Shown here piece by piece: positions 11,263 through 27,506 of a DNA stretch of 64,000 nucleotides. Source of the stretch: Thiocapsa bogorovii (GTDB taxonomy: Bacteria; Pseudomonadota; Gammaproteobacteria; Chromatiales; Chromatiaceae); contig NZ_CP089309.1 of NCBI RefSeq assembly GCF_021228795.1, positions 4,027,501 to 4,091,500 of the forward strand, in the 5' to 3' direction. Position 1 is the stretch's first letter, and each line of letters starts with the position of its first letter. The notes beneath the pieces are model-generated. The model saw only the letters and a program-made list of their open reading frames with translations. It was not told the origin of the DNA and did no database searches. The position numbers were made by a program, and so were the translations under genes.

Positions 11263-11277
11263 CCGGCGAGTCGCTTC

Positions 11278-11298: not shown

Positions 11299-11301
11299 AC
11301 C

Positions 11302-12378
11302 TTAGAACCAGCGTTTGATCCGGAAAAACACCAGCATGCCCACGGCCAGGATCAGCATCAGACCCAAGAGCGCGAAATACCCCCAGTGCCACTTGAGCTC
11401 CGGCATGTACTCGAAGTTCATGCCGTAGAGACCGGCCAGGAAGGTCAGCGGAATGAAGATGGTCGCCATGACGGTCAAGACCTTCACCACCTCGTTCGTG
11501 CGATAGCTGATGCCTGACAGATAGAGATCGAGCATCACCGAGATGATGTCGCGAAAGGTCTCGACCGTTTCGACCACTTGGACGGTGTGGTCGTAGACAT
11601 CCCGCAGGAAAACCCTCGTGGTCTCACCGACCAGTTTCGAATCCCCGCGCTGCAGGCCGCTGATCACCTCGCGCAACGGCCAGACCGACTTGCGGAGCTG
11701 AATCATCTCGCGCTTGAAGTGATGGATCGACTCCAGAGTGTCGGAGCCCGGGGTGACGAACAGCGCTTGCTCGAGATCTTCGATGTCGTCGCCGATACTC
11801 TCCAGTGTGGTGAAGTAGCGGTCGACCACGACATCGATCAGCGCATAGGCCAGATAATCCGTCCCCATCGCACGGCCACGAACCTTGCCGCTCCTCAATC
11901 GCTCGCGAACGCCGGCGAAGATCGGGTCGCTCGTCTCTTGGAACGAGAGCACGAATCTCGGTCCCAGAATCAGACTCACCTGCTCGACCCGGAATCCGCC
12001 CTCCTTGTCGTAGAAGGGAATCTTCAGCACCAGAAACAGGTAGTCGCCGTAGTCCTCCAATTTCGGCCGATGGTCGCTGTTGAGGATATCTTCGAGAACC
12101 AACGGATGAAGGCCGAAGCATGCCCCGATCGTCTCGATGTGTCCGACGGCATGGATTCCGTTGATGTTGATCCAGGAGACGGCCCGCCCCTTATCGAATC
12201 CGCAACAGCGCTCGACCTCGCGGATGCCGAACGTGACCTCCGAAAAGTGCTCTGCATCATAGGTGACGACATCGAACGTGATGGGCTCTTGGCTCGGCTC
12301 TCCCATATGCACCAGGGTTCCGGGTGGTGCCCCGATCTTGCGATGCGGACGCTTTCTGAGCAGCTTCTTGCGGGCCAT
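11302..12378 (-). CDS. corA: CorA-family divalent cation transporter
   Basis: A 358-residue inner-membrane channel for Mg2+ (or Co2+/Ni2+). A long soluble N-terminal domain with helical segments ends in two transmembrane helices near the C-terminus. The first is followed by the signature Y-G-M-N and the acidic loop F-E-Y-M-P-E-L. A basic tail (FFRIKRWF) closes the protein. The start at 12378 is chosen because CorA-like sequence follows; the frame stays open upstream to 12621 without family similarity. It converges on soeC and looks monocistronic. Confidence 0.92.
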   Translation of the reverse strand: MARKKLLRKRPHRKIGAPPGTLVHMGEPSQEPITFDVVTYDAEHFSEVTFGIREVERCCGFDKGRAVSWININGIHAVGHIETIGACFGLHPLVLEDILNSDHRPKLEDYGDYLFLVLKIPFYDKEGGFRVEQVSLILGPRFVLSFQETSDPIFAGVRERLRSGKVRGRAMGTDYLAYALIDVVVDRYFTTLESIGDDIEDLEQALFVTPGSDTLESIHHFKREMIQLRKSVWPLREVISGLQRGDSKLVGETTRVFLRDVYDHTVQVVETVETFRDIISVMLDLYLSGISYRTNEVVKVLTVMATIFIPLTFLAGLYGMNFEYMPELKWHWGYFALLGLMLILAVGMLVFFRIKRWF

Positions 12379-12909
12379 CAGGCGACTCCTCGTGTGGCGG
12401 ATCCCGAGGATAGGGCAGGGAGTCGATCTCGGTACAGTCTGTCGTCGTTCGAATACGTGCGCTCGTAGCGCAGTCTTCGCTCCAGAGACCTTTCTGCAAC
12501 ATCCGCGTTCGCGCGCCCAAGCGCCCGGCCGCCTCAAAAAGCACTCTTCATCGCGACCGAAAGCCGCTCGGAGTCCTTGGCGATCGCCGCTGACCACCCG
12601 TAACCCGTGAATTCCACACACTTTCCATCTGTCTTGCGCACGTGTCTCGGCGGCGGCGGAGGTCTAACCTGGTTCCCGAGGGCAAATAGATCGAGCACAG
12701 GCGGGTTTTTCGTCGCATTGCGCACCGCACACGTCGGGACGACGTTGCACCGGCTCGCCGCAGAGGCCGCTACGGCTCGTCGGTTCGCCTTGTCCAGATA
12801 CGCGCGGGATGCACCCTGCTTTCCGAAAAACCCAAGTGCGCTCGGTAGACCTCGCCACCCCCCGGATCATCGGGGATATCAGAAGACGCTTTCAGCGGAG
12901 ACCACCATC
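12379..12909. other. Intergenic region without a supported gene
   Basis: The 531 bp between divergent corA and the small exported-protein gene hold several short open frames on both strands, none with a convincing start, composition or family. The promoter region of corA must lie at its left end. I see no repeat or clear operator. Confidence 0.4.
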
Positions 12910-13221
12910 ATGACCATGCCACTCGTCGCCATTCTCGTCGCCGCCACCACCGGTATTGCCGCGACCGTCGCTGTCTTCGACAGCAGGGTCGAATCCCGCG
13001 AGGCTGTCTCTACCGTGGCTGCGTCGGCCGGTTCGACGGAGGGTTGGACCAGACGTGGGGTGAGGCCGGACGGTACGGCCCGGCATCCCGAGACCGCCGG
13101 GACATCGAACGAGGGACCGAGACGGGGTATGCGCGGCAGCCCCGAGAGCACTCAAGGTATCCCTGTCGCCGTCTCCGGCGATTGGACCCGGCGCGGGACG
13201 AGAAGCGTGCCGTCGAGCTGA
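12910..13221 (+). CDS. Small exported or membrane-anchored protein, unknown
   Basis: A 103-residue protein. A hydrophobic N-terminus (M-T-M-P-L-V-A-I-L-V-A-A-T-T-G-I-A-A) could be a signal anchor. The rest is a low-complexity Ser/Thr/Gly/Arg-rich tail with two copies of a [GD]-W-T-R-R-G motif and a related R-R-G-M-R-G, which look like short internal repeats. A plausible ribosome-binding site (GCGGAG) lies about 10 bp before the ATG. No family was recognised. Composition is coding-like but not decisive. Confidence 0.5.
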   Translation: MTMPLVAILVAATTGIAATVAVFDSRVESREAVSTVAASAGSTEGWTRRGVRPDGTARHPETAGTSNEGPRRGMRGSPESTQGIPVAVSGDWTRRGTRSVPSS

Positions 13222-13380
13222 TTCAACGGATCGGACCGCTGCACCGCCCCGGATGTCTTGCTTTTGCGGTGGCAGCGCTTGACGAGGTGGGCGGGGAAGG
13301 ATGTCCCGTACTCTCGGGTCCTGAGGGAGATCCCCCGACGGATCGGTCCGAAAGGACCTATGATGAACCGCCATAGACAC

Positions 13381-13467
13381 CTAAATCGCGTCTGGCGCGT
13401 CGCTCAAAGGTGGATGCGAGGCCGGATCAACCCGAGAACATACCCTATTGCGCCGGACGCGATTTAA
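13381..13467. repeat. Dispersed inverted repeat, family A (copy 4)
   Basis: The left arm CTAAATCGCGTCTGGCGC (13381-13398) pairs with GCGCCGGACGCGATTTAA (13450-13467), with mismatches at one inner position and the outermost base; 87 bp in total. The right arm contains the TAA stop of the minus-strand FadL-type gene (13464-13466), again placing the element at a gene's 3' end. No other gene is evident between 13222 and 13463. Confidence 0.8.
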
Positions 13468-14819
13468 CCCCCGAAGACGTAGCTCACCGAAAGGGACAGC
13501 ACGTCGACGTGGCTGTCCGTTTCCCCGCGAACCTCCACGCTGCTCTCCAGCGGGGTTCCGGCATAGAAGGGCAGTGTCAGATCGATGTCCGCGCGCGCGA
13601 ATCGACCGTACGCATAGCCGACATCCAGTCGAAGTTGCTTCGAGACGCTGTAGCTTGCACCGACCCCGAACCACAGCAGATCGCTGTCCGGAATGCTAGT
13701 GTTGCGCAATGCATTGGTGGTCGGAGATTCGTCATACTGGATGCCCCCGCGCAGCGTCCAGCGCGGGTCGAGTGCGTACTCGGCTGCCAGGCCGACCGTG
13801 TAGGTGTTCTCGAAGCCTTGGGGACGGACCAGATCGGGACTGCCACTCGCAAACCGTACCCGAATCTCGTCGAACGCATCCCAGCCGAACCACTGCACCT
13901 CGCCCATCAGTGTCAAGCGCGAGGTCACGGCTTGCGTGACGCTGAGTGTCAGAATGTCGGGCAGGTCGAGGCCGGTTCGAGTGTCGCTGCGTCCATTGGC
14001 CGCGGCCAAGGGCCCCCGCAGGCCGGAGACCTCGGCGCTTCCCTTCAGCGTATGGTCCATGCCGGATCGATAGTGCAACCCGACACGGGTTTGCTCGCTC
14101 GGCTGATAGAGCAGGCCGATGTTGAATCCGGTGCCCCATCCGTCACCGGTCAGCTTGGAACGACCGTCCGAGCCGGGGGTCGGCCCGCCGGGGTTGAACG
14201 GATCCGGCAGTGCACTGATCAACTGCGCATCCGCATACTGAATGTCGATGCCGCCACCGATCGACCAGGCGTCGTTGATCCGATAGGCGAGCGTCGGGGC
14301 GATGTCGAGGGTCTTGATGCTGTTGTTGTAGGAATCGTATCGGCCGAACCATTCCGGGCCGTAGTCCAGCTCGAGCCCGAACGGGGAGGTAACGGCAAGT
14401 CCGATCCAGATCCTGCCGTCCATGAGCGGCGTACCGAGAAAGAGATTGGGGACGGGAATCCAGCCGTCCCCGTGGCCCCGACTTCCGGCGTAGAGAACCT
14501 CTTGTCCTGCGCTGCCGGGCGTGCCGGCCAGCGAGCCGCGATTGTCGACGGCGATGTCGGCATTGATCGCATCCACGCCGATCTCGACGAAGGTGTCCCC
14601 GAGTCGGGTCATACCCGCCGGGTTGTAAAAAAGGGTGCTGCCGTCGCGAGCCGCCGAGGCGAGGCCGACATTCGCCGAACCGGTCGCAGTGGCGCCCTTC
14701 ATCGGGACATAGATCCCGCCGGCCAGTGCGCTCGAGGGCAGGTTTGTCAGGTGTGCCGCGGCGAAAAGCAATACAGCCGGGGGGAACCGGCGTCGAAGAC
14801 AAGGATCGGTGATGGGCAT
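13464..14819 (-). CDS. FadL/OmpP1-family outer-membrane hydrophobic-compound channel
   Basis: A 451-residue predicted beta-barrel with a signal peptide (RRRFPPAVLLFAAAH to SSALAG). The mature protein contains G-S-T-L-F-Y-N-P-A-G-M-T-R-L-G, the FadL hallmark, with an N-terminal plug-like segment and alternating strands ending in L-S-V-S-Y-V-F-G-G. FadL proteins import long-chain fatty acids or other hydrophobic molecules. Its promoter region is shared with the divergent phosphodiesterase-CRP gene and it lies next to a lipoxygenase gene, which hints at fatty-acid uptake for that enzyme (inference). The start at 14819 gives a clean signal peptide; an upstream in-frame ATG at 14864 adds 15 residues. 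Confidence 0.87.
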   Translation of the reverse strand: MPITDPCLRRRFPPAVLLFAAAHLTNLPSSALAGGIYVPMKGATATGSANVGLASAARDGSTLFYNPAGMTRLGDTFVEIGVDAINADIAVDNRGSLAGTPGSAGQEVLYAGSRGHGDGWIPVPNLFLGTPLMDGRIWIGLAVTSPFGLELDYGPEWFGRYDSYNNSIKTLDIAPTLAYRINDAWSIGGGIDIQYADAQLISALPDPFNPGGPTPGSDGRSKLTGDGWGTGFNIGLLYQPSEQTRVGLHYRSGMDHTLKGSAEVSGLRGPLAAANGRSDTRTGLDLPDILTLSVTQAVTSRLTLMGEVQWFGWDAFDEIRVRFASGSPDLVRPQGFENTYTVGLAAEYALDPRWTLRGGIQYDESPTTNALRNTSIPDSDLLWFGVGASYSVSKQLRLDVGYAYGRFARADIDLTLPFYAGTPLESSVEVRGETDSHVDVLSLSVSYVFGG

Positions 14820-15012
14820 GAGGCTGATCCTGCGGTAGGGATTGGACGGCGCGGGCGCCATCATAGCGACTCTCGCCCATGCTCGTCGCCCGCGGACATC
14901 CGTGGCTCGCCGTCGACGAAGACACGCATGTCGTCCGCTTGGGCGTCCTATTCCATTGAACGATGAAGGTTATCCGGGCTCGCGATGGCGTTCTGTGGTG
15001 GCTAGAATGCCA

Positions 15013-15026
15013 TGAGGTCGACCTCA
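15013..15026. promoter_or_regulatory. Perfect 14-bp palindrome, candidate operator
   Basis: TGAGGTCGACCTCA is a perfect palindrome in the fadL/phosphodiesterase-CRP divergent region. It lies just downstream of a possible -10 (TAGAAT, 15003-15008) and 25 bp before the GGAGG ribosome-binding site. It is not the consensus CRP site (TGTGA-N6-TCACA), but the size and position suit a dimeric regulator, possibly the adjacent CRP-fusion protein acting on its own gene. Confidence 0.4.
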
Positions 15027-15061
15027 ACTGTTTGCGGTTTTCGCTTCGTTTGGAGGCAACG

Positions 15062-15133
15062 ATGCTTTGTTGGAGACCCTTAGGGACGCATCCGGTGTCT
15101 GCGACCGTTGTGACATGGAACCCATGCGCATGA
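15062..15133 (+). CDS. Possible 23-codon leader peptide
   Basis: The only strong ribosome-binding site here (GGAGG, 15052-15056) is best placed for the ATG at 15062. That ATG opens a 23-codon frame in a different register from the large downstream gene and ends in TGA at 15131-15133. The stop overlaps a cluster of in-frame ATG codons of the large gene (15115, 15124, 15130). This would allow translational coupling, but the peptide may not be made. Confidence 0.25.
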   Translation: MLCWRPLGTHPVSATVVTWNPCA

Positions 15134-16707
15134 TGTCGTCGGATGCGGCGAAGGTGCCCTTTCCCGAAGTCTCGAAAGCGCCCTTCGTCTTGCCGCCCGG
15201 CGCCTCGCCCGGCGTCGTCGCGGATCAGATCGTCGCCTGCTTTCGGGTGGTCGGGGAGCTTGAACGACCCGCGACCGAGGTTTTCGAGGCCGTCAGAGTA
15301 AGGCTGGGGTGCGATCAATTCGACCCCATGGTCGCGGCCGGCGCGTGCATTGCCGGCGAGATCGACGGCGGGGCTGCAGAGCAGGCGCGCAACGCGTATC
15401 ACAACAGCCAGCATATCTGCGAGGTCGTCCTTTGCAGCCTGTTTCTCGGTCAGCAGGCAGGTCTCTCGAGCGAGCGTTTGATGCGGGTCGTGGTCGCCGC
15501 GCTCGTGCATGACTTTCGTCATGACGGCACCACCAACGCCGACGAGTCCTTCCGGTTGGAACGGTTGGCGGTTGCCGCGGCCGGACCCTATCTTGAGCAA
15601 GCGCGTGTCGCGCCCGAGGAGATCGAGCGCATCGCCGCGCTTGTCCTCGCCACCGAGGTGAGGGCGGGCGTGCCCTATGCGCGTCGCTGTTTTCGCTTTC
15701 TCCATCAAGCGGGCCCGCCTCCCGATGCCCCACCGGACGAGGCGGGCGAGGCGAGTCTCTTGCGACGCCTTACGGGCGACCCGGATCTGGCGATGGAAGC
15801 GGTGGTGCTTGCGGAGGCCGATCTGCTGCCGTCGGTCGCCTTGACCGACGACTACGGCATGTTGTGTCAACAGCGCCTCGTCCAAGAGAATGGGGGGGGC
15901 ATTGTCGGCCCGGCGGAGAAGCTGGCCTTTCTTGATCAACAATCCGGGGGGTTCTTGGTCTCCGGCTTCTTCGAGCCGAATTTCAATCGCCTGCGGCAAT
16001 CCATCGTCGTGGCACTGACGGGCCGAATGCGGGAAAGAGCGATGATGAACCAGGAAACACGCGACATTCTGTTGGACATTCCGCTGTTTGCGGAGCTTGG
16101 CATCGATCGCATCGGTGACCTGATCGATCAGGCCGCAATGCGTACCTACCGCGCCAATACGGTGGTCATGCAGAAGGGCGACGAGGCCAGCGCCCTCTAC
16201 GTCTTGCTCTCGGGCCGCGTCAAGGTCTTCTCGGCCGACGACAACGGCAAGGAGATCGTGCTCAACGAGCTCGGTCCCGGGGACTATCTCGGCGAGCTCG
16301 CCTTGATTGAGGATTCTACGCGATCGGCATCCGTGATGACCGTCACGCCGTCGCGTTTCCTGGTCATTCCTAAGGCGGCCTTCCAGGCGTTCCTGATCTC
16401 GCGACCGAACGTGGCGTTGCATTTGATCGGCGCGCTCGCCGCACGGGTGCGCAAGCTGACCGAGGAGGTCGAGCGCCTCGCGCTGCGCGACGTCTACAGC
16501 CGGCTTGCGGATACGCTCCAGGCGCGCGCCGTCGAGGAGGACGGTCGCCTCATCACCGATTCGCTCACGCAGCGCGATCTCGCCGCACTCGTCGGCGCCT
16601 CCCGAGAGATGATCAGCCGAATCCTCAAGGATCTGAAGGCCGGCGGCTACATTGCGCTCGAAGGCAAGCGCGTCGTCATCCACCGCAAACTGCCGGAGCG
16701 CTGGTGA
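15067..16707 (+). CDS. Cyclic-nucleotide phosphodiesterase-like domain fused to a CRP-family regulator
   Basis: A 546-residue two-part protein. Residues about 100-320 carry class I phosphodiesterase-like metal motifs: Y-H112-N-S-Q-H116, then A-L-V-H148-D149-F-R-H152-D-G, and an Asp at A-E-A-D252-L. Residues 329-445 form a cyclic-nucleotide-binding domain with G-E-L-A-L-I-E and R419-S420 at the phosphate-binding positions of E. coli CRP (E72, R82, S83). Residues 495-540 are a CRP winged helix (A-S-R-E-M-I-S-R-I-L), so promoter binding like CRP is plausible. The frame shown begins with TTG; ATG codons at 15115-15130 are alternative starts. One protein could thus bind and hydrolyse the same second messenger. 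Two fused genes are excluded because the frame is uninterrupted. Confidence 0.85.
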   Translation: MLETLRDASGVCDRCDMEPMRMMSSDAAKVPFPEVSKAPFVLPPGASPGVVADQIVACFRVVGELERPATEVFEAVRVRLGCDQFDPMVAAGACIAGEIDGGAAEQARNAYHNSQHICEVVLCSLFLGQQAGLSSERLMRVVVAALVHDFRHDGTTNADESFRLERLAVAAAGPYLEQARVAPEEIERIAALVLATEVRAGVPYARRCFRFLHQAGPPPDAPPDEAGEASLLRRLTGDPDLAMEAVVLAEADLLPSVALTDDYGMLCQQRLVQENGGGIVGPAEKLAFLDQQSGGFLVSGFFEPNFNRLRQSIVVALTGRMRERAMMNQETRDILLDIPLFAELGIDRIGDLIDQAAMRTYRANTVVMQKGDEASALYVLLSGRVKVFSADDNGKEIVLNELGPGDYLGELALIEDSTRSASVMTVTPSRFLVIPKAAFQAFLISRPNVALHLIGALAARVRKLTEEVERLALRDVYSRLADTLQARAVEEDGRLITDSLTQRDLAALVGASREMISRILKDLKAGGYIALEGKRVVIHRKLPERW

Positions 16708-16901
16708 ACGCAAGAGACCCTGTCGAGCCGGCGCTGTCTTCGAAACAGGCCTCCCTGAGTCGCTGTTGGCGAGACACTCCGCGCCACGATGCGCTCGACG
16801 GCATCCTCGATGGAGGCTCGTATCCCGGCGAGCCCTGAATCCTGCGCACCGGAATCGGGCGAGCACGACCATGATTCGGCAAAACGACACCGGGGGATGA
16901 A

Positions 16902-19790
16902 ATGATCGACGCAATCCGTGATTATGGATTTCTGTACTGGGAGCGCTTTCTTCGCAGCCGGCTCTTCATGGTCCTGCTGCGGCCCGTCATCATTACCCTC
17001 ATTACGCTCAACTCCATCGTGACCCGCCGGCGCATGAGCCATGAGAACGGGCTCGTGGTTCGGGGGCAGGCGAGGATTCTCGGCGATGTGGATCTGCCGC
17101 CCAACGGCTTCTTCACGCCGGGTAAGGTGTTCCCATGCCGGCTTCGGCATGCCTCCGTAAGCTTCCTCGACGATGCGGCTCTGGTGGTGCGCGGCGCCTC
17201 GGTGAAGTTCGCGGACGAGGCCGTCGACAGTCCGTTCGACATGCTGATGAACAACGGCAACAGCACGCCGTTCTGGAACATGGATACCTTTCTCCAGTTT
17301 ACGCTCGCGCGTATTCGCGGAGGACGTGCCCATTTGATCGATTATTTCAAGCGCAATCCGCGCTGCTACATGAACGTGCGCGATGCCTTGCGTCGCGATC
17401 CATCGAGCTTTGCAAACCTCCATTATTATTCGCAGATCCCCCTGCGCTTCATCGCCGAAGACGCCGTCGTGCGCTATGCGAAATTTCGACTGATCCCGTG
17501 GGACGAGATTCCGGAGCGCGACGGGATCCCGGACGAGGCCGATCTACACACGCCGTGGTTTCAGCAGGCGAAGCCGAACGAGCGGCGAGGGCGCAATTAC
17601 CTCAAGGACGAGTACCGAAGGCGTCTCGACAAGCAACACGTGCGCTACCGGTTCCAGATCCAGCTTCTGGACTGGCGCGATTCGGATGATCGGGACTACG
17701 AGCTGTCCTCGCTCTATCCCTGGAATGAAGACGACTGTCCCTGGCGGGATCTCGCCGAGGTGACCATCACCGAAGCGCTCGACGACGCCGAGGGCAATGA
17801 ATGCCTGTTCAGCCTGCGTCACCTGCCGCAGTCGGTGTTGCAGACGATCCCTGCCCGGAACTTCAGAGACGGGCCGTCCATCGACTATCTGCGCTTGGCC
17901 GGGTGGTGGCCGCGACGTGCGCGGGTCTTGATGTATCGACTGCGCGGCCAGCCGCCGCGGATCCCCGACGAGCGCAGCGAGCCTGCCGAGGCCTACGCCG
18001 ACGAGACCGTCTCGCCCGTCGTCTCCGACGATGTCTACAGGCGGCCCTGTCTGCCGCAACACGACACGCCCGAGCGCCTTGAAGAGCGCAGGGAGCAGCT
18101 CGAGAAGGCGCGCGGCATCTATCAATTTCTGCACGGCTTTATCCAGGTCGAGCCGACCGGCGTTCGGCCCCCGTGGGATCCGCCGCCCTGGTATCGACGG
18201 GTCTTCAAGATCTACGAGCCCGAGCCCGAGGATCGCAAAACCGTCCCGGTTCCGCTGCCGCCTTTCGTGCGCGAGCTGCCTTTAGCCGAGCGCTACAGCC
18301 GCTATATCCAAGGCCGTATCTACCGGATCGTCGGGGTCTCCTACCTGGCCTTGGCATTGAGTCGGATCGAGAACTGGCTCGCCAAAAAGAAGGGTCTCGA
18401 CATCTATCGTTTTCTGCTCTGGGGCTTTCGCGACAAGCCGCCGACCATGGATCGTTGGCGCGATGATGCCGAGTTTGCCCGCCAACGGGTGGCGGGGGTC
18501 AATCCGCGCATGATTCGCCTCTTCGACGAGATCCCCGCCAACTTTCCGGTCACCGATGCGGCCCTGGACGGCCTGCTCGATCCGGGCGAGACACTCGCCT
18601 CGGCGATGAAGAAGAAGCAGCTTTATTGGTGCAACTACGCAATACTCGAAGGGATCTCGGTTAAGCCCGGACGGCATCTTGCCCATCCCATCGCCCTGTT
18701 CTACGTGAACGGCGAGAGACGATTGATGCCCGTTGCCATCCAGCTCTTCCAGCGTCCCGAGGCAGGTCCGATCTTCACCCCCAAAGACGATCCGGGGCTT
18801 TGGCTGGCGGTGAAGACCTTCACGCAATCCGCCGACGCCCAGGTCCACGAGGTGGTGGAGCATCTTCTGAGTACGCACCTGATCGTCGAGCTCTTCAAGG
18901 TCGCCATGCGTCGGACCCTTCCCGATGCGCATCCCGTCAACAAACTCTTGGCGCCCCATCTGGCCTACACCATGGCGGTGAATACCTCGGCGCGCACCCA
19001 ACTGCTGGCGCCGGGTGGCCCCATCGATTCCACCATGGCCGTCGGTTCGAAAGGGGCCTTCGAGCTGATGGCGCGGGCCTGGCGGGATCACCCGATCTTG
19101 GACGCGCAGGATGTCCCGCTCGATCTGAAGGCGCGCGGAGTGGACGATGTCGAGGCATTGCCCGACTATCCTTGGCGCGACGATGCCCTTAAACTCTGGG
19201 GGGTCGTCCAGCGTTATGTCGCGGCCATGGTCGAGCACTTCTATGCGAGCGACGACGATGTCGCAGAGGATGACGAGTTGCAGGCCTTCCACGCCGAGAT
19301 TCGCGATCCGCGGGGCGGGGGCGTCCGGGGCATTCCGGGCGGCGAAGTGGGTTTCCGGACCCGCGACGAGCTGAGCGGGTTTCTGACCCGGATCATCTAC
19401 ACGGCCTCGGCCGGCCATGCGGCGGTGAACAACGGCCAGTACGATTGTTTCGGCTTTATTCCGAACGTCCCGGGCGCGCTCTATCGACCGCCGCCGCGGG
19501 AGAAGGATGTGAGCTGGAGCGAGCGGGACCTCGAACGTGCGCTACCCGATTTGCGCACCGCATCCACTCAGATCCTCATGGTCCGGCTGTTGTCGCGTCG
19601 GACCGAGATGCCGATCGGGCGGTATGCTCCGGCCTTTTTCGCCGGAACCCAGTCGGTGCTGCCGATCGTTACCCGTTTTCGGCGCGACTTGCATGCGTTG
19701 AGCCTGGAGATCGAGAGGCGCAATCGCGGTCGCGATGTTCCTTACACCTACCTGGATCCGAAACAGGTCCCTCAAAGTATCGTGACATGA
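16902..19790 (+). CDS. Catalase-related haem domain fused to lipoxygenase
   Basis: A 962-residue fusion. Residues about 50-350 look like a catalase-related haem protein (allene oxide synthase type): F-F-T-P-G-K-V-F-P-C-R-L-R-H83, then V-R-G-A-S-V-K-F, then N-N-G-N, and R341-V-L-M-Y345 matching the R-x3-Y proximal haem ligand. Residues about 390-962 are a lipoxygenase: iron ligands H649 and H654 in H-E-V-V-E-H-L-L-S-T-H, H839 and N843 in G-H-A-A-V-N-N-G-Q-Y, and C-terminal ...P-Q-S-I-V-T. Fusions of this kind (coral, Anabaena) oxygenate polyunsaturated fatty acids and convert the hydroperoxide to an epoxide. The last residue is Thr instead of the usual Ile or Val. Its stop overlaps the kinase-cyclase start by 4 bp. 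N-terminal residues 10-40 are hydrophobic and could associate with membrane. Confidence 0.88.
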   Translation: MIDAIRDYGFLYWERFLRSRLFMVLLRPVIITLITLNSIVTRRRMSHENGLVVRGQARILGDVDLPPNGFFTPGKVFPCRLRHASVSFLDDAALVVRGASVKFADEAVDSPFDMLMNNGNSTPFWNMDTFLQFTLARIRGGRAHLIDYFKRNPRCYMNVRDALRRDPSSFANLHYYSQIPLRFIAEDAVVRYAKFRLIPWDEIPERDGIPDEADLHTPWFQQAKPNERRGRNYLKDEYRRRLDKQHVRYRFQIQLLDWRDSDDRDYELSSLYPWNEDDCPWRDLAEVTITEALDDAEGNECLFSLRHLPQSVLQTIPARNFRDGPSIDYLRLAGWWPRRARVLMYRLRGQPPRIPDERSEPAEAYADETVSPVVSDDVYRRPCLPQHDTPERLEERREQLEKARGIYQFLHGFIQVEPTGVRPPWDPPPWYRRVFKIYEPEPEDRKTVPVPLPPFVRELPLAERYSRYIQGRIYRIVGVSYLALALSRIENWLAKKKGLDIYRFLLWGFRDKPPTMDRWRDDAEFARQRVAGVNPRMIRLFDEIPANFPVTDAALDGLLDPGETLASAMKKKQLYWCNYAILEGISVKPGRHLAHPIALFYVNGERRLMPVAIQLFQRPEAGPIFTPKDDPGLWLAVKTFTQSADAQVHEVVEHLLSTHLIVELFKVAMRRTLPDAHPVNKLLAPHLAYTMAVNTSARTQLLAPGGPIDSTMAVGSKGAFELMARAWRDHPILDAQDVPLDLKARGVDDVEALPDYPWRDDALKLWGVVQRYVAAMVEHFYASDDDVAEDDELQAFHAEIRDPRGGGVRGIPGGEVGFRTRDELSGFLTRIIYTASAGHAAVNNGQYDCFGFIPNVPGALYRPPPREKDVSWSERDLERALPDLRTASTQILMVRLLSRRTEMPIGRYAPAFFAGTQSVLPIVTRFRRDLHALSLEIERRNRGRDVPYTYLDPKQVPQSIVT

Positions 19791-22700
19791 TCCAGCCGGC
19801 CATCCTCGCACGAGCGGCTTCACCGACATTGCTGGATCCGATTCGCCGTGGCCAAACCTTCACCGTCTATCGAGGCCGTCTCGCCGACGGCCAATCGGTC
19901 ATCTGCAAGACGGTGAGCGGGCGGCGTTGGACCCCGGACGCCATCGCCCGACTGGAGAACGAGTACGCCATCACGCGTGGACTGACCCACCCCGGTCAGA
20001 TCGCGGCGCGTGCCCTGATCAGGACCGATCAGGGGCCCATGCTGGTGTCCGACGATCTGGGCGATCGTTCTCTGGATACGGTCACGACCTTGCCGCTGCC
20101 GCCCGAGACGGTCCTGCGCATCGCTGTGGAGCTCGCGCGGATCTTGGCCGACCTTCACCAGGTCCAAGGTATCGTCCATCGCGATATCAAGCCGTCGAAC
20201 CTGATCGTCGACGAAGGCTTCAGCAGGGTCAGGCTCATCGACTATTGTCTGGCCATTCGGGCCGCCGACCTCGCCGAGGAGCCGGCCGGTGCCTTCGCGG
20301 CGAAGGGTACGCTGGCCTACATGGCGCCCGAGCAGTCCGGCCGCATGAACCGTCAGGTCGATTGGCGTGCCGACCTTTACGCCTTCGGCATCCTGCTCTA
20401 CGAGCTGCTGACCGGGCGGGTACCCTTCGCGGACCCGGATCCCGCGACCCTGATCCACCGGCATTTGACCGAGATCCCGCCGGCTCCGCACGATCTTTGC
20501 GACGCCATCCCGACCGCGTTGTCCGACGCGGTGATGAGGCTGATCCGCAAGAACCCGGAAGATCGGTTCCAGACGGCGACGGACTTCATCAACGCCGTCG
20601 AGCGGCCGGGCGATCGTGGCGCTCCGATGCCCAGCATGCTGCGGATCCCGGATCGCCTCTACGGCCGCGAGGCGATGATCGACCGGTTGACCGGTCTCAT
20701 GGCGGTCGATGGCCGGCGCGGCGGCAGACTGTTGCGCATCGCGGGCCAGTCGGGCATCGGAAAGTCTGCGCTGGTCGAGCGGCTGGTGGCGCCGATCGTC
20801 GCCCACGGCGGTCATTTCATCCAAGGCAAGTTCGATCAGACCGAGCGGGCCCGTCCCTACGCCCCCTTCGTCCAGGCCTTCAACGCACTCTTGCGCAGTC
20901 TTCTGGCGGGGACGACCGAGCAGGTCGATGCCTGGCGCGCCCATCTGCTCGATGCGCTCAGCCCCAATGCTCGGGTGGTGCTCGACCTCCTGCCCGGATA
21001 CGAGGCCTTGCTCGGCCCTCAGCCGCCTGTGGCCAAGTTGGGTCTGAACGAGGCTCAGATCCGCATGTCTCTGGTGTTTCGCCGGTTCGTGGGCGCGTTG
21101 GCGCGTTCGGAATCGCCGCTGGTGATCTTCATCGACGACCTGCAGTGGTCCGACAGCGCCTCCCGCGCGTTGATCGAGCTGCTTCTGACGGACACCGAGA
21201 TCGGCTACCTGACGATCCTGACCGCCTATCGAGACAACGAGATCGGGGCTGGGCACCCTGTGGCCGGGCTGTTCGCGACGCTGGAGGAGAAGCTCGGGCT
21301 TCCACCCGTCATCGAGGTGGGACCGCTCGGGCATGCGGCGGTGTCCGAGCTCTTGGCCGACGCCTTGGGGCACCCGGCAGCCGAGGTGGAGGGTCTGGCG
21401 GCGCGCGTGGTCGCCAAGACCGGCGGCAACCCGTTCTTCGTGCAGCAGTTCCTGAGGGCGCTTCAGCGCAAACGGCTGCTCCTCTACGATGCGGCGACCG
21501 GGCGTTGGCAGTGGGATCTCGCTGCGGTGGACTTGGAGCAGATCACCGACAATGTCGCCGATCTGGTCATCGAACGGATTCTGGAGCTGCCGGCGCCGAC
21601 CCGTGAGATGGTCCAGATCGCGGCCTGTCACGGCAATCTGTTCGAGACCGAGATCCTGGCCCTGGCCGCCGAGCACGATCCGATCGAGATCGTGCGGCTG
21701 CTCGCCCCGGCACTCGAGGCCGATATCCTCCTCCGCGTCGACGACGAGGCCGGCGATCGGGTATTCCCCCGCCGCTATCGTTTCCAGCACGACCGAGTCC
21801 AGCAGGCGGCTCACGATCTGTTGTCGCAGGACCTGCGCGAGCAGATCCACGCCCGTATCGGTGCCTTGCTGCTCGAGAAGATCCCGGACCCCGCAGCGGT
21901 CGGGCGTCTGACCGAGATCACGGACCATCTGATCGCGGGGCAGCGCCGGCTCGACCCGGACGAGCGCCGGCGTCTGCGCGATTTAGCCCTGCAGGCGGCG
22001 CGCTTGACCAAGTCGGCCCTCGCCTACGACGCAGCCGTTCACTATCTGGATGTCGCCGATGCCATGCTGGGCGAGGACGCCTGGCGGCGCGAGCCCGATC
22101 TGGCGTTCGAGATCGCGCTTGAAAAGGCGCAGGCGGCCTATCTGCAGGACCGCACCGACCTCGCCGAGGAGATCGCCGACGGTCTGCTCGGGCGCGGCCG
22201 GCCGGCGCTGGATCAGGTCCGGGTGCTGGGGCTGATGGTCTTGCTGCATACCTCCCGGATGGCCTACGGCAGGGCGCTCGATGTGGGCCTGCGTGCACTG
22301 GCGCTGCTCGGCGAGAAGCTGCCCCGTCGGGTGCATTTGCTTCGGGTCGTCGCCGAGCTGGCGAGCGCCAAGACGCGTCTCGCCGGACGCACCACCCGCG
22401 ACCTGGCGGAGCTGCCGCGCATGCAGGACCCGCGCAAGCTCGCCGCCATGCAGATCATGGTCCTACTGGCGCCGCCGGCCTATTTCAGCGCGCCGAATCT
22501 GCTGCCCCTGATCGCACTGCGCATGGTCCAAATGTCCGTTCGGTACGGCAATGCGCCTGAGTCCGCCTACGCCTACGTCCTCTACGGCATGCTGCATTGC
22601 GCCGTTCTCGCGGATCCCGTGCGCGGTCTGGCCTACGGTGATCTGGCACGGCAGCTCGTCGTCGACCTGGACGCACGCGATCTCGAAGGCCGCATTCTCA

Positions 22701-25084
22701 TGATCTATGCGGGCTTCATCCAACACTGGTCTGCCCCCTTGGTCGAGACACTGCCGATCTTCCTGGAAGGGGCCGAAAAGGCAATCAGCGCGGGTGATCT
22801 CGAGCATCATGGATACCATCACTACGGACACGCATCCTACGCCTTCATGGGCGGGCTGCCGCTGGCGAAGGTGTCCGATTATCTCAAGAGTCACCAGGCC
22901 GCCGAGGGCGATGCGCGTCACGAAAAGACTCGACGTATCATGCGGATGGCGGGCTTCAGTATTGCGCGCATGCGGGGGCTGGAGGACGCGGCGTACCTGG
23001 CCGAAGGCGAGCGGGAGAGCGAAGACGAGAGCTTTGCCGTCTGGACCGAGCAGCGCGATGCCACCTCGCTCGCCTATTTCCACAAGTATCGGATGCTCGA
23101 TGCCCTCATGCGCGACGACTTTCGGGAGGTGCTCGCACGGGCGCGCGGGATGGAGGAGAATCTGAACGGCATCGTCTCCATGGCGTTCGAGCCCTTTTAC
23201 CAGTTTTACGAGGCCCTGGCCCTGATCGAGCTGGGCGCGACCGACGGGGTTGCACGCTCGGTCATGCGGCGTTCCCGGGCGTGGCGACTCACGCGGCGGC
23301 TGGAGCGTTGGGCCCGCCATGCCCCCGAGAACTTTGCCCATCGTGCACTGATGCTGCGGGCCGAGCTGGCCGCGGCCGGTGGTCGATCGGCCCGCGCCAT
23401 GGAGCTCTTCGACGCCGCCGTGACGGCCGCCCGGCGGGCCGGTGCCCTTCAGGATGTCGGTTTGTTCCTGGAGCGGGCGGCCCGCTTCTATCTCGGGCGC
23501 GGAGCCCGGACGGCGGCGGCGGGTTATCTCTCCGACGCCGTCGATGCCTTCGATGTCTGGGGGGCGAATGCCTGGTCGAAGGTGCTGGCCGAGCGCTACG
23601 CCGATCTGGTGCAGCCGCGCAACAGCGGGATGGCCGACGTGACCGAGACGGGTACGAGCAGCAGCGGCCACGGGCAGATCGTCGACAGTGCGACCCTGAT
23701 CCGCGCCGCCGCGGCACTGGCCCGCAAGGTCTCGCTCAAGGACGTGGTCACCGAGGTTATGCGCGCCATGGTGATCAATGCCGGTGCGACCCGCGGCGTT
23801 CTGCTGCTCGATGTCGACAACCGGTTACAGGTCGCGGCCGTCGGCGATGCCAAGGGCGATGTGCAAGTCTTGACCGACGGCTCGGCCGTCGAGCTGCATG
23901 GGATCCCTAACGGGTTGGTGAGCTTTGTGCGCCGCGCTTGTGAGCGTGTCGTGATGGACGACGCCTGCGCGGATCCGACCTTTCGATCCGATCCGCATAT
24001 CCGGGCGCATTCGGCCTTGTCGATTCTCTGCGTTCCGCTCTTGTCCAAGGGCGACGTCGTGGGGATGGTTTATCTCGAGAATGCCGGCGTGCGCGGGGCC
24101 TTCTCCGCGGATCGGTGCATCACGGTGGAGACCTTGGGGGCACAAGCGGCCGTCTCGATCGAGAACGCCCGTCTCTACGACTCGCTGCGCAGCTCGCTGG
24201 AGCGCCAGGCCGAGCTGACCTTCGCCCACGCTCGCTTCGTCCCGCACCAGTTCCTCGAAACCCTGGGTCGTCCGTCCATCGGGGACATCAAGCTCGGCGA
24301 CCACGTCCTGACCAAGGCATCGATTCTATTCTCGGATATCCGCGGCTTCACCTCGCTCGTCGAGGGCATGGCACCGGAAGACGCCATCGATTTCATCAAC
24401 ACCTATCTCGCCCGGATGGAGCCGGCGGTGCTGGCCGAGGGCGGATTCATCGATAATTATGTCGGCGATGCCATTATGGCCGTGTTCGACCGCGGCGCCG
24501 ATGCGTCCGTGCGCGCCGGTATCGCCATGCTGCGCAGTCTCGGGGAATGGACACGGCCCCGCGAGCTGCACGGCCAGTCACCGATCCGTATCGGTGTGGG
24601 CATTGCCACGGGAGAGATGATCTTCGGCACTATCGGCGCTGCCAACCGCCTCAAATGCGGTGTGGTCGGCGACACTGTCAACCTGGCTGCCCGTATCGAG
24701 GGATTGACCAAGCATTACGGCCTGGGCCTGTTGATCGGGGGGAATACCTACGCTTCGCTCGACGACCCGGAGTGTTACCTGATTCGGGAGATCGATCTCG
24801 TCACCGTGGCCGGTCGAGAGGCCCCGGTGCGACTTTACGAGGTCTTCGATGCGGATCCCGAGACCCTGCGCGATCAGAAGCTACGAGCCCGAGACGCCTT
24901 GTCGGAAGGGCTGCGCCTCTATCGGGCAGGCGACGACGATCACGCCGCGCGGACCTTCAGACTCTGTCGAGACCTTGCGCCGGATGATCCTCTGCCCGTG
25001 CTTTTGGCCAAGCGCTGCGGGCGTATCCGCGACCGCGTGTCCGCCGCGGCATGGGACGGGATCGAAAGGATCGGGCTGAAATAG
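19787..25084 (+). CDS. Ser/Thr kinase - AAA-type ATPase - GAF - class III nucleotide cyclase
   Basis: A 1765-residue signalling protein. Residues 1-275 are a protein kinase (K41, H131-R-D133, K135, N138; the DFG position reads D152-Y-C and the glycine loop is weak). About 285-700 is an ATPase module with Walker A G-Q-S-G-I-G-K-S and Walker B V-I-F-I-D-D-L-Q-W. A helical, TPR-like stretch follows to about 1280. About 1300-1460 is a GAF domain. About 1485-1690 is a class III cyclase with both metal Asp residues (D1517, D1561). The two purine-selecting positions read N1557 (Lys in adenylyl cyclases) and G1625 (Asp or Thr), so ATP or GTP preference is unclear. The ATG at 19787 overlaps the lipoxygenase stop as ATGA, indicating coupled translation. 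hypF starts 1 bp after its stop. Confidence 0.9.
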   Translation: MIQPAILARAASPTLLDPIRRGQTFTVYRGRLADGQSVICKTVSGRRWTPDAIARLENEYAITRGLTHPGQIAARALIRTDQGPMLVSDDLGDRSLDTVTTLPLPPETVLRIAVELARILADLHQVQGIVHRDIKPSNLIVDEGFSRVRLIDYCLAIRAADLAEEPAGAFAAKGTLAYMAPEQSGRMNRQVDWRADLYAFGILLYELLTGRVPFADPDPATLIHRHLTEIPPAPHDLCDAIPTALSDAVMRLIRKNPEDRFQTATDFINAVERPGDRGAPMPSMLRIPDRLYGREAMIDRLTGLMAVDGRRGGRLLRIAGQSGIGKSALVERLVAPIVAHGGHFIQGKFDQTERARPYAPFVQAFNALLRSLLAGTTEQVDAWRAHLLDALSPNARVVLDLLPGYEALLGPQPPVAKLGLNEAQIRMSLVFRRFVGALARSESPLVIFIDDLQWSDSASRALIELLLTDTEIGYLTILTAYRDNEIGAGHPVAGLFATLEEKLGLPPVIEVGPLGHAAVSELLADALGHPAAEVEGLAARVVAKTGGNPFFVQQFLRALQRKRLLLYDAATGRWQWDLAAVDLEQITDNVADLVIERILELPAPTREMVQIAACHGNLFETEILALAAEHDPIEIVRLLAPALEADILLRVDDEAGDRVFPRRYRFQHDRVQQAAHDLLSQDLREQIHARIGALLLEKIPDPAAVGRLTEITDHLIAGQRRLDPDERRRLRDLALQAARLTKSALAYDAAVHYLDVADAMLGEDAWRREPDLAFEIALEKAQAAYLQDRTDLAEEIADGLLGRGRPALDQVRVLGLMVLLHTSRMAYGRALDVGLRALALLGEKLPRRVHLLRVVAELASAKTRLAGRTTRDLAELPRMQDPRKLAAMQIMVLLAPPAYFSAPNLLPLIALRMVQMSVRYGNAPESAYAYVLYGMLHCAVLADPVRGLAYGDLARQLVVDLDARDLEGRILMIYAGFIQHWSAPLVETLPIFLEGAEKAISAGDLEHHGYHHYGHASYAFMGGLPLAKVSDYLKSHQAAEGDARHEKTRRIMRMAGFSIARMRGLEDAAYLAEGERESEDESFAVWTEQRDATSLAYFHKYRMLDALMRDDFREVLARARGMEENLNGIVSMAFEPFYQFYEALALIELGATDGVARSVMRRSRAWRLTRRLERWARHAPENFAHRALMLRAELAAAGGRSARAMELFDAAVTAARRAGALQDVGLFLERAARFYLGRGARTAAAGYLSDAVDAFDVWGANAWSKVLAERYADLVQPRNSGMADVTETGTSSSGHGQIVDSATLIRAAAALARKVSLKDVVTEVMRAMVINAGATRGVLLLDVDNRLQVAAVGDAKGDVQVLTDGSAVELHGIPNGLVSFVRRACERVVMDDACADPTFRSDPHIRAHSALSILCVPLLSKGDVVGMVYLENAGVRGAFSADRCITVETLGAQAAVSIENARLYDSLRSSLERQAELTFAHARFVPHQFLETLGRPSIGDIKLGDHVLTKASILFSDIRGFTSLVEGMAPEDAIDFINTYLARMEPAVLAEGGFIDNYVGDAIMAVFDRGADASVRAGIAMLRSLGEWTRPRELHGQSPIRIGVGIATGEMIFGTIGAANRLKCGVVGDTVNLAARIEGLTKHYGLGLLIGGNTYASLDDPECYLIREIDLVTVAGREAPVRLYEVFDADPETLRDQKLRARDALSEGLRLYRAGDDDHAARTFRLCRDLAPDDPLPVLLAKRCGRIRDRVSAAAWDGIERIGLK

Positions 25085-25085
25085 C

Positions 25086-27506
25086 ATGACCGCCGAGTCG
25101 ATTCGGGTCCGCGGCCTGGTTCAGGGCGTGGGCTTTCGGCCCACCGTCTGGCGGTTGGCCCGCGCGTGCGGTCTGCGCGGCGATGTGCGGAACGACGGTG
25201 AGGGCGTGTTGATTCGGCTGAGCCCCGGCGTCGCCGGGGATGGTGCCGGCGTCAGCGGTTTTCTGAAGCGTCTGCGCGAGGAATGCCCGCCGTTGGCCCG
25301 GATCGATGCGATCGAGCGGCGTCCGATCGATGAGCCGCAGGCGTTGGCGGACCTCGCGCGGCGGCAAGACTTCGTCATCCTGGAGAGCGCGTCGACCGCC
25401 GTGCATACCGGCATCGTTGCCGATGCCGCGACCTGCGCGGCCTGTGTCGCCGAGATCCGGGATCCCGCCAATCGGCGCCATCGCTATCCCTTCACCAATT
25501 GCACCCACTGCGGGCCGCGTCTGAGTATCGTCGCCGGCATCCCCTACGACCGTGCCCGGACCAGCATGGCCGCCTTTCCCATGTGCCCGGACTGCGCGGC
25601 TGAGTACAAGGATCCCGCGGACCGACGCTTCCATGCACAGCCCAACGCTTGTACTGTCTGTGGCCCCAAAGTTTGGCTTCAGGATTCCGCGGGGTGCGTC
25701 CTGGATCCCACGACGTTCGGTGCCCAGGATGCCATCGCCGCGGCAAGCGGGTTGCTCGCCGAGGGGCGGATCCTCGCCATCAAGGGCATCGGCGGCTTCC
25801 ATCTCGCGTGCGATGCGACCAACCCCGATGCGGTCGCCGAGCTGCGTCGGCGCAAGCGGCGCTATGCCAAACCGCTCGCGCTCATGGCGCGCGATCTGGA
25901 TGTGATCCGGGGCTATTGCCGTGTGCCCGGGCGGGATGCGGAGCAGCTTGCCGAGCTGCTCTCAGGTCCAGGTGCGCCGATTCTGCTCTTGGATCGGATC
26001 CGCTCGGATGGGGCGGAGCAGGGCGGCGATCCGCGGCGACCCTTGGCGCCGGATGTCGCGCCCGGTCAGATGACCTTGGGGGTCATGCTGCCCTACAGTC
26101 CCATCCACCATCTCCTCCTGGAGGACTGGGATCGGCCCCTGGTGATGACGAGCGGCAATCTGAGCGAGGAGCCCCAGTGTATCGACAACGCCGATGCGCT
26201 CGGCCGGCTCGGGCAGCTGGCCGATGTCCTGCTGCTGCACGACCGGGCGATCCTCAACCGGGTCGACGACTCGGTGGTTCGGGTGATGGCGGGGACGCCT
26301 CGCCTGCTCCGGCGTGCACGCGGCTATGCCCCCACACCCTTGCCCCTGCCGCCCGGCTTCGAGGCCGCACCGCCGCTCTTGGCGCTCGGCGGCGAGCTCA
26401 AGAACACCTTCTGTTTGGTCCGCGACGGTCAGGCGATCCTCTCCCAGCATCTCGGCGATCTGGAGGACGCCAAGACCGCACGTGAATTCGAACGGACCCT
26501 CGCCCTCTATCTCGACCTCTTCCAGGTCGTTCCCGAGGCGCTCGCCGTCGATCTGCACCCGGACTACCGGTCCAGCCTGACCGGGCGTGACCGAGCGGCG
26601 CGCGACGGTCTGCCGCTGATCGGGGCGCAGCATCACCACGCCCATCTCGCCTCGACGCTGGCAGACAACGGCTGGCCCCTGGATGCCGGGCCTGTGCTCG
26701 GTATCCTGCTCGACGGACTCGGCTACGGCAGCGACGGCACACTCTGGGGCGGCGAGTTCCTGCTCGGGGACTATCTGGATTTCCGACGGCTCGCCCATCT
26801 CAAAGCAGTGGCCATGCCCGGCGGGACGCGCGCGATCCTGGAGCCCTGGCGCAACCTCTATGCACACCTGGAAAGCGCCGGCGGTTGGGCGACTTGGCGT
26901 GCGCGCTTCGCCGGGCTCGAGCCGATCGAGCGGCTCGACGCCAAACCGCTCGGGATTCTAAACACACTGATCGCGCGTGGCCTCAACGCACCGCTCGCGA
27001 GCTCGACCGGGCGCCTCTTCGATGCAGTCGCCTCGGCGCTGGGCGTCGGCGGCGAGATACTGACCTACGAAGGGCAGGCCGCCACCGCCCTGGAGTCGCT
27101 GGCCGCCGACGCCATGGTACGGGTCGGCGACGGCTATCCGTTCGAGCGATCGAGCGGGCCAACCGGCGAAATGCTTGATCCGGCGCCGCTTTGGGACGCC
27201 TTGCTTGCCGACCTCTCCCGCGGCCGTCCACCCGAAGAGATCGCCGCAGCCTTCCACGTTGGACTCGCGACGGCGCTCGGTACGCTGGCCCTCGATCTGG
27301 CGAGCCGTCACGGTCTCTCGACCGTCGCGCTCTCCGGTGGCGTGTTCCAGAACCGACTGCTCCTCGAATCCGTCACAAGTGGACTTGAAGCCGCCGGGCT
27401 CCGGGTTCTGTTGCAGCGCCAAGTGCCGGCCAACGACGGGGGGATTTCGTTTGGCCAAGCGGCGGTTGCGGCGGCGCGGGTCTTGAGCGGCAGTCTTGGG
27501 GCCTGA
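25086..27506 (+). CDS. hypF: [NiFe]-hydrogenase maturation carbamoyltransferase HypF
   Basis: An 806-residue enzyme that makes thiocarbamate for the cyanide ligands of the [NiFe] centre, working with HypE. The N-terminus is an acylphosphatase domain (G-L-V-Q-G-V-G-F-R-P-T-V-W). Two zinc-finger cysteine groups follow (C-A-A-C...C-T-H-C-G-P-R and C-P-D-C...C-T-V-C-G-P-K), then a YrdC-like domain and a Kae1-like domain with H-H-H-A-H-L-A-S. It is a little longer than E. coli HypF (750 residues). It sits 1 bp after the kinase-cyclase gene and far from other hyp or hydrogenase genes in this window, so co-transcription with the signalling genes seems incidental or a shared-promoter effect. Confidence 0.95.
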   Translation: MTAESIRVRGLVQGVGFRPTVWRLARACGLRGDVRNDGEGVLIRLSPGVAGDGAGVSGFLKRLREECPPLARIDAIERRPIDEPQALADLARRQDFVILESASTAVHTGIVADAATCAACVAEIRDPANRRHRYPFTNCTHCGPRLSIVAGIPYDRARTSMAAFPMCPDCAAEYKDPADRRFHAQPNACTVCGPKVWLQDSAGCVLDPTTFGAQDAIAAASGLLAEGRILAIKGIGGFHLACDATNPDAVAELRRRKRRYAKPLALMARDLDVIRGYCRVPGRDAEQLAELLSGPGAPILLLDRIRSDGAEQGGDPRRPLAPDVAPGQMTLGVMLPYSPIHHLLLEDWDRPLVMTSGNLSEEPQCIDNADALGRLGQLADVLLLHDRAILNRVDDSVVRVMAGTPRLLRRARGYAPTPLPLPPGFEAAPPLLALGGELKNTFCLVRDGQAILSQHLGDLEDAKTAREFERTLALYLDLFQVVPEALAVDLHPDYRSSLTGRDRAARDGLPLIGAQHHHAHLASTLADNGWPLDAGPVLGILLDGLGYGSDGTLWGGEFLLGDYLDFRRLAHLKAVAMPGGTRAILEPWRNLYAHLESAGGWATWRARFAGLEPIERLDAKPLGILNTLIARGLNAPLASSTGRLFDAVASALGVGGEILTYEGQAATALESLAADAMVRVGDGYPFERSSGPTGEMLDPAPLWDALLADLSRGRPPEEIAAAFHVGLATALGTLALDLASRHGLSTVALSGGVFQNRLLLESVTSGLEAAGLRVLLQRQVPANDGGISFGQAAVAAARVLSGSLGA

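Follow-up and report, generated by a model that had tools for sequence, protein, structure and literature searches.

We analysed a 64,000-nucleotide stretch of DNA (the window; positions 4,027,501-4,091,500 of the single-contig 5.65 Mb genome of Thiocapsa bogorovii) in which four neighbouring genes encode a FadL-type channel, a phosphodiesterase fused to a CRP-type regulator (PDE-CRP), a haem-lipoxygenase fusion enzyme and a large protein that combines kinase, ATPase, GAF and class III nucleotide cyclase domains, hereafter the signal protein. The comparison of genomes supported a conserved core of haem enzyme, lipoxygenase and cyclase-ATPase, with the FadL channel and PDE-CRP outside it. An earlier note, made from the sequence alone, had proposed that all four genes act as one oxylipin-cyclic nucleotide system. 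The results bore this out in part: an oxylipin-type enzyme stood beside a cyclase far beyond Thiocapsa, at 16 of 16 loci, and the FadL and phosphodiesterase matches were confined to the four Thiocapsa loci, with none in the 12 others (some on short contigs). For this haem subfamily, a putative link between oxylipin chemistry and a cyclic nucleotide has good genomic support. A module in which an oxidised lipid would switch on the cyclase is our best explanation, and we give it even chances.

Pairing of the haem-lipoxygenase enzyme with a cyclase

We scanned 84,980 species genomes with a haem-domain profile, using two peptide patterns; 73 stretches matched, of which 16 encoded relatives, and the sample covers one subfamily. 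The 16 loci came from isolates of Thiocapsa (4) and Thiohalocapsa (2) and from metagenome bins labelled Rhodobacteraceae, Rhodobacterales, Xanthomonadales, Lamprocystis, Competibacteraceae, Proteobacteria (2), Acidimicrobiales/Acidimicrobiaceae (2) and Flammeovirgaceae, some of which bin labels may be wrong. The results showed that all 16 loci encode, no more than two genes away from the haem or lipoxygenase gene, a class III cyclase joined in one protein to an AAA_16 (STAND-like) ATPase; for this count, the cyclase queries included the loci's own sequences. With the window domains alone as queries, the cyclase was found in 15 of the 16, and that of L070 was found by Pfam. Lipoxygenase was recognised in 14 loci; the sequence of L069 stops short of its expected position. 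No class III cyclase was found in 10 control loci (4.6 to 21.5 kb long overall), which comprised seven lipoxygenase loci without a recognised haem domain (L052, L056, L077, L078, L110-L112) and three haem-like loci without a recognised lipoxygenase (L079, L113, L114).

One Thiohalocapsa genome (G140, the same as G561) contained a single class III cyclase, which adjoins the lipoxygenase, and the other genomes reached via the loci contained 2 to 33. At one gene per kb, a cyclase would lie within two genes by chance with a rough probability of 0.0007 to 0.027 per genome; related loci are not independent of one another. Layouts varied among the loci, the haem enzyme being fused or split and the cyclase standing before or after the lipoxygenase. 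Mechanically called open reading frames (ORFs) showed tight contacts, namely a 4-bp overlap between the cyclase and haem genes in L070 and between the lipoxygenase and haem genes in L073, and a 3-bp gap between the lipoxygenase and cyclase genes in L066. The core genes probably move together between distant taxa.

Three types of cyclase partner were distinguished. Type A has the plan kinase-AAA-TPR-GAF-cyclase. Type B (L070, L073) follows the same plan, forms a separate clade and has a stronger guanylate-cyclase match. Type C (L063, L064, L065) is SAM-cyclase-AAA, assigned by Pfam for the L063 protein (the same as that of L050) and the L065 protein, and by similarity for L064. In a haem-domain tree of 13 rows, which omits L059, L060, L062 and L072, the three types required three changes, with type C in two separate places, indicating that the partner was swapped while cyclase and ATPase were kept. 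No other observation argues as strongly for a functional link as this replacement, which marks the ATPase and cyclase, rather than the kinase or GAF domain, as the essential part. In Thiohalocapsa (L050 3332-9321), the SAM-cyclase gene has an amidase gene ahead of it and shares 4 bp with a PAS-GGDEF-EAL gene; cyclic di-GMP (c-di-GMP) and the other cyclic nucleotide may therefore be linked there.

The kinase-AAA-TPR-GAF chassis of the signal protein matched 44 of the 195 genomes of the order (E 1e-60, two candidates scored per genome). A match spanning kinase to cyclase was found in six of them only (five Thiocapsa and G183), all with the haem-lipoxygenase, and G033 matched the GAF-cyclase part alone. 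We then compared 23 other chassis proteins, which remained from 51 places (30 had loci) after removal of six lipoxygenase-linked proteins and L085, which has a stop. Fifteen carried a GGEEF motif, five a histidine-kinase box and three neither; a class III cyclase motif was found in none of the 23, several of which run off the sequence end. In a chassis tree of 33 rows, the lipoxygenase-linked proteins fell into two clades of their own, requiring two changes against a mean of 8.7 in shuffled trees, a value reached in 0 of 500 shuffles. This tree was a quick one with long-branch warnings, and it omits the near copies L059, L060, L062 and L072 and the three SAM types.

Components of the cluster

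The lipoxygenase half of the fusion enzyme matched Pfam Lipoxygenase (3.8e-66), and the catalase-related N-terminal half had no Pfam match. The fusion matched the solved coral allene oxide synthase-lipoxygenase (AOS-LOX) 3dy5 (E 9e-133, residues 27-342 and 468-959) and has the layout of catalase-related AOS-LOX fusions, with the haem domain N-terminal and the lipoxygenase C-terminal. For the coral enzyme, the excerpted text of PMC5617202 gives R64, R102, R360, T66, H67, N137 and Y353 as haem-site residues. The site in the window protein comprises R44, S46, H47, N117 and R341xxxY345, kept in 13 of 13 aligned haem domains (11 of 11 in another alignment). The distal His/Asn and proximal Arg-xxx-Tyr of AOS-LOX were thus present, with a counterpart of coral R360 that could not be placed, and the lipoxygenase metal ligands H654, H659, H839 and N843 were found in 12 of 12 aligned domains. 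The usual C-terminal Ile was replaced by Thr in five Thiocapsa (SIVT, window 19776-19790) and by Ala in L061 (Rhodobacteraceae), and was present in the remaining aligned cyclase-linked lipoxygenases. Position 697 is Ala in the window lipoxygenase and Gly in the coral enzyme; by the usual rule, Ala here would predict S-type oxygenation. A hydrophobic segment at about residues 22-40, ahead of the distal His, was seen by eye in the aligned haem domains, which suggests that the haem domain contacts the membrane.

The signal protein matched Pfam Pkinase (1.5e-26), AAA_16 (9e-36), GAF (3.2e-10) and Guanylate_cyc (5e-14). Its cyclase domain carries the class III motifs FSDIRGFT, GDAIMA and VNLAAR, which contain the two metal Asp residues and the transition-state Asn and Arg. 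Both metal Asp residues were kept in 15 of 16 aligned rows, those that cover both. The transition-state Asn is kept in the window and is Ser in two Thiohalocapsa partners. In classical class III cyclases, Lys at the substrate position selects adenine. This position was occupied by Asn in Thiocapsa and Thiohalocapsa, Ser in L061, Lys in L067, L068, L070, L071, L072 and L073, Glu in L066 and L069, and Gln in L065. Two class III cyclase domains were found in the window genome, one of them in the signal protein. The best NCBIfam match of the signal protein was TIGR03903 (TOMM system kinase/cyclase fusion protein), at 133.7 bits against a cut-off of 705.75, and it covers the ATPase part. In L068 (12392-12984), the cyclase domain is broken over two frames, by either a real lesion or an assembly error.

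PDE-CRP matched Pfam PDEase_I (9.8e-6; 25.9 bits, cut-off 24.8), cNMP_binding (2.2e-25) and HTH_Crp_2 (1.3e-12). Its annotated TTG start is probably too early, and the true start is probably the ATG near 15115, because homology begins nearer this codon. The phosphodiesterase motifs NAYHNSxH, HDxxHDGTTN and AEADLLPS (late Asp) were invariant in six of six aligned sequences and agree with HNxxH, HDxxH and a late Asp, the motifs of class I phosphodiesterases. The regulator half has a cNMP-binding domain and a CRP-type helix-turn-helix and matched CRP-family regulators in PDB; its GEL..RS and SREMxSR motifs, close to those of Escherichia coli CRP, were kept in four of four aligned fused copies. 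In Thiocapsa sp. KS1 (L062 8299-9906), phosphodiesterase and CRP are two adjacent ORFs split at the domain junction, with RT replacing RS in the CRP; the two are fused in the four other carriers. An AlphaFold model of PDE-CRP built from four sequences had a mean pLDDT of 47, too low to interpret, and a relative matched PDB sequences at E 0.026 or worse. A stand-alone relative of the phosphodiesterase (55-56%) was seen in two genomes of one genus of the family (L054 167-7425, L055 7208-10551), near an opposite-strand glutaminase-STAS-cyclic nucleotide-binding protein; in L054, a SAM-cyclase-AAA protein follows this neighbourhood. No lipoxygenase match was found in these two stretches.

The FadL-type channel matched the Pfam FadL/Toluene_X family (3.8e-89) and NCBIfam FadL at 156 bits, under the equivalog cut-off of 585, and was kept at 82-88% identity in four other cluster-bearing Thiocapsa. 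The control region between the FadL and PDE-CRP genes was very variable in length across five aligned species, and no conserved operator was found in it by this alignment. The CRP-type consensus gave 91 matches with at most three mismatches in the window, against 144 expected by chance, and this number below chance provides no evidence for operators. A palindrome near window 15012, noticed by eye, was rejected as a candidate since it was not conserved among the aligned species.

The cluster within Thiocapsa and its flanks

All four ORFs of the earlier note were recovered where it had placed them, with GC3-biased codon use (G+C at third codon positions) and with matches to Pfam families or 3dy5. 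The overlap reported for the last two genes was confirmed as 4 bp (ATGA, the lipoxygenase stop ending at 19790 and the cyclase ATG lying at 19787), and the FadL and PDE-CRP genes are indeed divergently oriented from one control region. As one half of what would refute its proposal, the note had named genes that are neighbours in no related genome; we found them in the same order in four other Thiocapsa.

The fusion protein matched 12 of the 195 genomes of the order at E 0.001 (at most four candidates scored per genome). Ten of these matched in the lipoxygenase half, eight of them also in the haem half, and two matched weakly in the haem half only. Among the 11 Thiocapsa genomes, lipoxygenase and full PDE-CRP (E 1e-40, at most seven candidates scored per genome) were present together in five and absent together in six, a pattern that holds at the E-value limits used. 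In all five carriers, the FadL, PDE-CRP, lipoxygenase and kinase-cyclase genes stand in the same order adjoining hypF. Four of the five also have a corA-like gene on the opposite side; the fifth, on a contig of 17.7 kb, showed none. The four-gene arrangement is not due to chance, given its order in four other Thiocapsa, the joint presence and absence, and the cyclase partners at 16 of 16 loci. A haem search in 369 genomes of the class (at most five candidates scored per genome) found the window genome only, indicating that the module is rare.

We further compared the sites of the six Thiocapsa genomes without the cluster, all of which have hypF. Three of them have an empty site: the corA-like gene is followed by hypF after about 770 bp in G116 and after 587 bp in G151, and in G147, which has no corA there, a dmsC-like gene is followed by hypF after about 509 bp. 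In the other three, the upstream context is different or the contig ends. A stretch of the window upstream of the lipoxygenase gene (Table 1) resembled the hypF leader of all three empty sites compared (blastn, 68-75% identity, E 2e-6 to 9e-11), which places the lipoxygenase and cyclase genes between the hypF leader and hypF, and the FadL and PDE-CRP genes ahead of the leader. Taken on sequence comparison, the pattern of cassettes and empty sites would fit insertions or losses alike.

The hypF gene scored 760.5 bits against the NCBIfam hypF cut-off of 466.1. It begins 1 bp downstream of the cyclase gene and is possibly co-transcribed with the module. We considered hypF as a fifth member and rejected it because it is present in all six Thiocapsa genomes that lack the cluster. 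In two of these (L119 7815-10397, which is G116, and G151), the hypF alignment falls into two blocks that share one open frame and stand about 170-210 bp apart. In Thiocapsa sp. KS1 (L049 2220-5388), about 3.2 kb separate the corA-like and FadL matches, which exceeds the distance in the window and in two other carriers showing both genes. Ten window proteins (9435-29416) were submitted to Pfam, and the matches were Fer4, DmsC, CorA, FadL, PDE-CRP, lipoxygenase, kinase-cyclase, HypF and Ala racemase, with no match for one protein. Window 60001-64000 has a G+C of 0.545, compared with 0.62-0.67 in the remaining 4-kb stretches of the window.

Table 1. Coordinates of the cluster and its flanking genes in the window
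Feature	Position	Strand	Basis
FadL/OMPP1-type outer-membrane channel, 466 aa	13464..14864	-	Pfam Toluene_X
Divergent control region between FadL and PDE-CRP genes	14865..15114		Sequence, five-species alignment
Class I phosphodiesterase-CRP fusion, 546 aa from TTG	15067..16707	+	Pfam, motif alignment
Stretch resembling hypF leader, upstream of lipoxygenase gene	16722..16875		blastn against empty sites
Catalase-related haem domain (~1-370) and lipoxygenase (~450-962) fusion	16902..19790	+	3dy5, alignments
Ser/Thr kinase-AAA_16 (STAND-like) ATPase-TPR-like-GAF-class III cyclase, 1765 aa	19787..25084	+	Pfam
hypF, native flank outside the module	25086..27506	+	NCBIfam hypF
corA-like gene, native flank on the opposite side, outside the module	11302..12621	-	Pfam CorA 5.5e-74

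Proposed working, alternatives and known systems

In the module that we propose, the lipoxygenase would oxygenate a polyunsaturated fatty acid (at its pentadiene) to a hydroperoxide, which the haem domain would turn into an allene oxide, epoxy-alcohol, aldehyde or similar product. The ATPase/TPR part, with GAF where present, would sense this product or the lipid peroxide and then activate the cyclase. In Thiocapsa only, FadL may import the substrate, CRP may read the nucleotide and the fused phosphodiesterase may erase it, giving a feedback loop. A bolder version, that in several phyla an oxidised lipid directly activates a STAND ATPase-nucleotide cyclase as a dedicated route, with a Thiocapsa cassette that adds uptake channel, receptor and eraser and possibly with a non-standard nucleotide, is one that we hold tentatively, at somewhat under even chances.

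Several points weigh against the proposed module. We infer the direction of signalling, the substrate, the nucleotide and the ligand, and likewise the production of an oxylipin and its binding to the cyclase protein. The varying residue at the substrate-choosing position (N, S, K, E, Q) means that the nucleotide cannot be named, and Ser in place of the transition-state Asn puts the activity of the two Thiohalocapsa partners in doubt. The window CRP domain had no match in the 12 non-Thiocapsa loci (some contigs being short and neighbours partly annotated), and no nucleotide receptor is therefore known there. L070 has haem and cyclase genes with no lipoxygenase recognised within 18 kb. All rows of the scan profile came from cyclase-linked loci, and other haem-lipoxygenase subfamilies, such as the cyanobacterial one, lie outside the sample. 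The genome has one fatty-acid desaturase match, which leaves the source of polyunsaturated fatty acid unsettled.

The rival that survives best reverses the direction. The kinase-ATPase-cyclase would sense another cue (stress, energy, light or cell density) and control oxylipin output, for example as a message to neighbours or a weapon against them, so that the locus would pair a biosynthetic enzyme with a regulator dedicated to its pathway, as the TOMM kinase/cyclase family does in its own system, to judge by its name. The signal protein has its best NCBIfam match in that family, its kinase domain could act on the enzyme, and the window lipoxygenase gene stands behind a hypF-like leader. The TIGR03903 score, however, falls far under its cut-off. 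The neighbours examined with Pfam, a part of all, included no exporter common to the loci, although an RND pump stands by L069 and an ABC-transporter ATPase by L061. Furthermore, the two SAM-cyclase partners examined stand beside lipoxygenase without kinase and GAF, indicating that phosphorylation cannot be the common function. We regard the reversed direction as rather unlikely.

We consider it improbable that the locus handles toxic polyunsaturated fatty acids or lipid peroxides from mats and plankton, with enzymes that detoxify or catabolise them and a cyclase that adjusts expression. Catalase-related proteins act on peroxides, a FadL channel adjoins the enzyme in Thiocapsa, and an acyl-activating/acyltransferase protein lies nearby in Thiohalocapsa halophila; however, no beta-oxidation gene was found among the neighbours given to Pfam (a part of all), and in our judgement three cyclase partner types would be unusual for simple detoxification.

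We regard as very improbable an anti-phage or conflict system, whose STAND-like sensor would produce the cyclic nucleotide and whose lipid-oxidising enzyme would serve as a membrane-damaging effector. The patchy cassette does combine ATPase, cyclase and enzyme, and in PADLOC the signal protein matched PycC (62 bits) and PD-T4-6 kinases, and the CRP domain matched PycTIR; yet these generic matches reflect shared domains, and the lipoxygenase has none. Pfam detected no cyclic-nucleotide-binding domain on the lipoxygenase protein, and among 2.9 million viral contigs, 19 stretches matched the peptide pattern and none encoded a relative. Equally improbable is a pairing that has no functional connection and merely results from the horizontal transfer of linked genes, since the pairing, for all the probable joint travel of the genes, survives partner exchange, splitting or fusion of the haem enzyme and changed gene orders, and the rough chance of the placement is low.

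To our knowledge, the role of bacterial lipoxygenases and catalase-lipoxygenase fusions in the cell is largely open. The pairing would give bacterial lipoxygenases a concrete job, namely coupling lipid oxidation to a cyclic nucleotide, and it hints at what one group of giant ATPase sensor proteins may respond to. The cassette is compact, and its enzyme, sensor-cyclase, receptor and eraser could be assayed singly in phototrophic bacteria. The parts belong to known families, and the arrangement appears undescribed: in the open-access literature, searched by title and start of abstract with subscription journals mostly outside, no description of a bacterial lipoxygenase-cyclase cluster was found among the top-ranked papers.

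The closest enzymes are the coral AOS-LOX and hydroperoxide lyase-LOX and the cyanobacterial catalase-LOX fusions of Anabaena and Acaryochloris, which share the same two domains in the same order, with haem-site residues and metal ligands kept. The window enzyme differs from them in having Ser for the distal Thr, Ala 697 for the coral Gly and, in Thiocapsa, a C-terminal Thr. The excerpts of PMC5617202 and of an octadecanoid review mention no cyclase partner, and the latter treats the Acaryochloris and Anabaena fusions as enzymes, without mention of neighbours. The oxylipin-dependent quorum sensing (ODS) system of Pseudomonas aeruginosa likewise joins bacterial oxylipin enzymes to a dedicated regulator, with fatty acid supplied from outside, but it uses diol synthases and the LysR regulator OdsR, and its description never uses the word "cyclic" in the main text (PMC6377657). 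Its diol synthases have two haem-binding motifs each, according to the abstract of PMC4496055. Neither di-haem diol synthases nor a LysR OdsR family was found among the 10 window proteins given to Pfam.

The TOMM family TIGR03903, by its name, joins a kinase to a cyclase in a single protein that accompanies an enzyme system, as here; in contrast, the signal protein scores under the family cut-off and its neighbours are lipid-oxidising enzymes, and no TOMM family was found by Pfam among the same 10 proteins. As a curiosity rather than evidence, the transcripts that methyl jasmonate lowered in a study of myxobacteria include one for a TOMM kinase cyclase. The kinase-AAA-TPR-GAF proteins of the same order that end in GGDEF or histidine kinase share the chassis up to GAF, at about 29-39% identity, whereas the output here is a class III cyclase. 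Pycsar also pairs a class III cyclase with a cyclic-nucleotide-binding partner, and its PycC match is at the domain level. Neither Pfam nor PADLOC detected a TIR or other Pycsar effector domain here, and the PycTIR match is limited to the cNMP-binding part of PDE-CRP.

A likeness outside bacteria is found in Aspergillus, where oxylipins (HODEs) are sensed through GprC and AcyA (PMC11133280). With AcyA as an adenylate cyclase, the oxylipins there would feed a cyclase pathway, as proposed here, but through a eukaryotic receptor pathway. If direct activation of the cyclase by an oxidised lipid proves true, this route would be a bacterial counterpart of eicosanoid-to-cyclic-nucleotide signalling.

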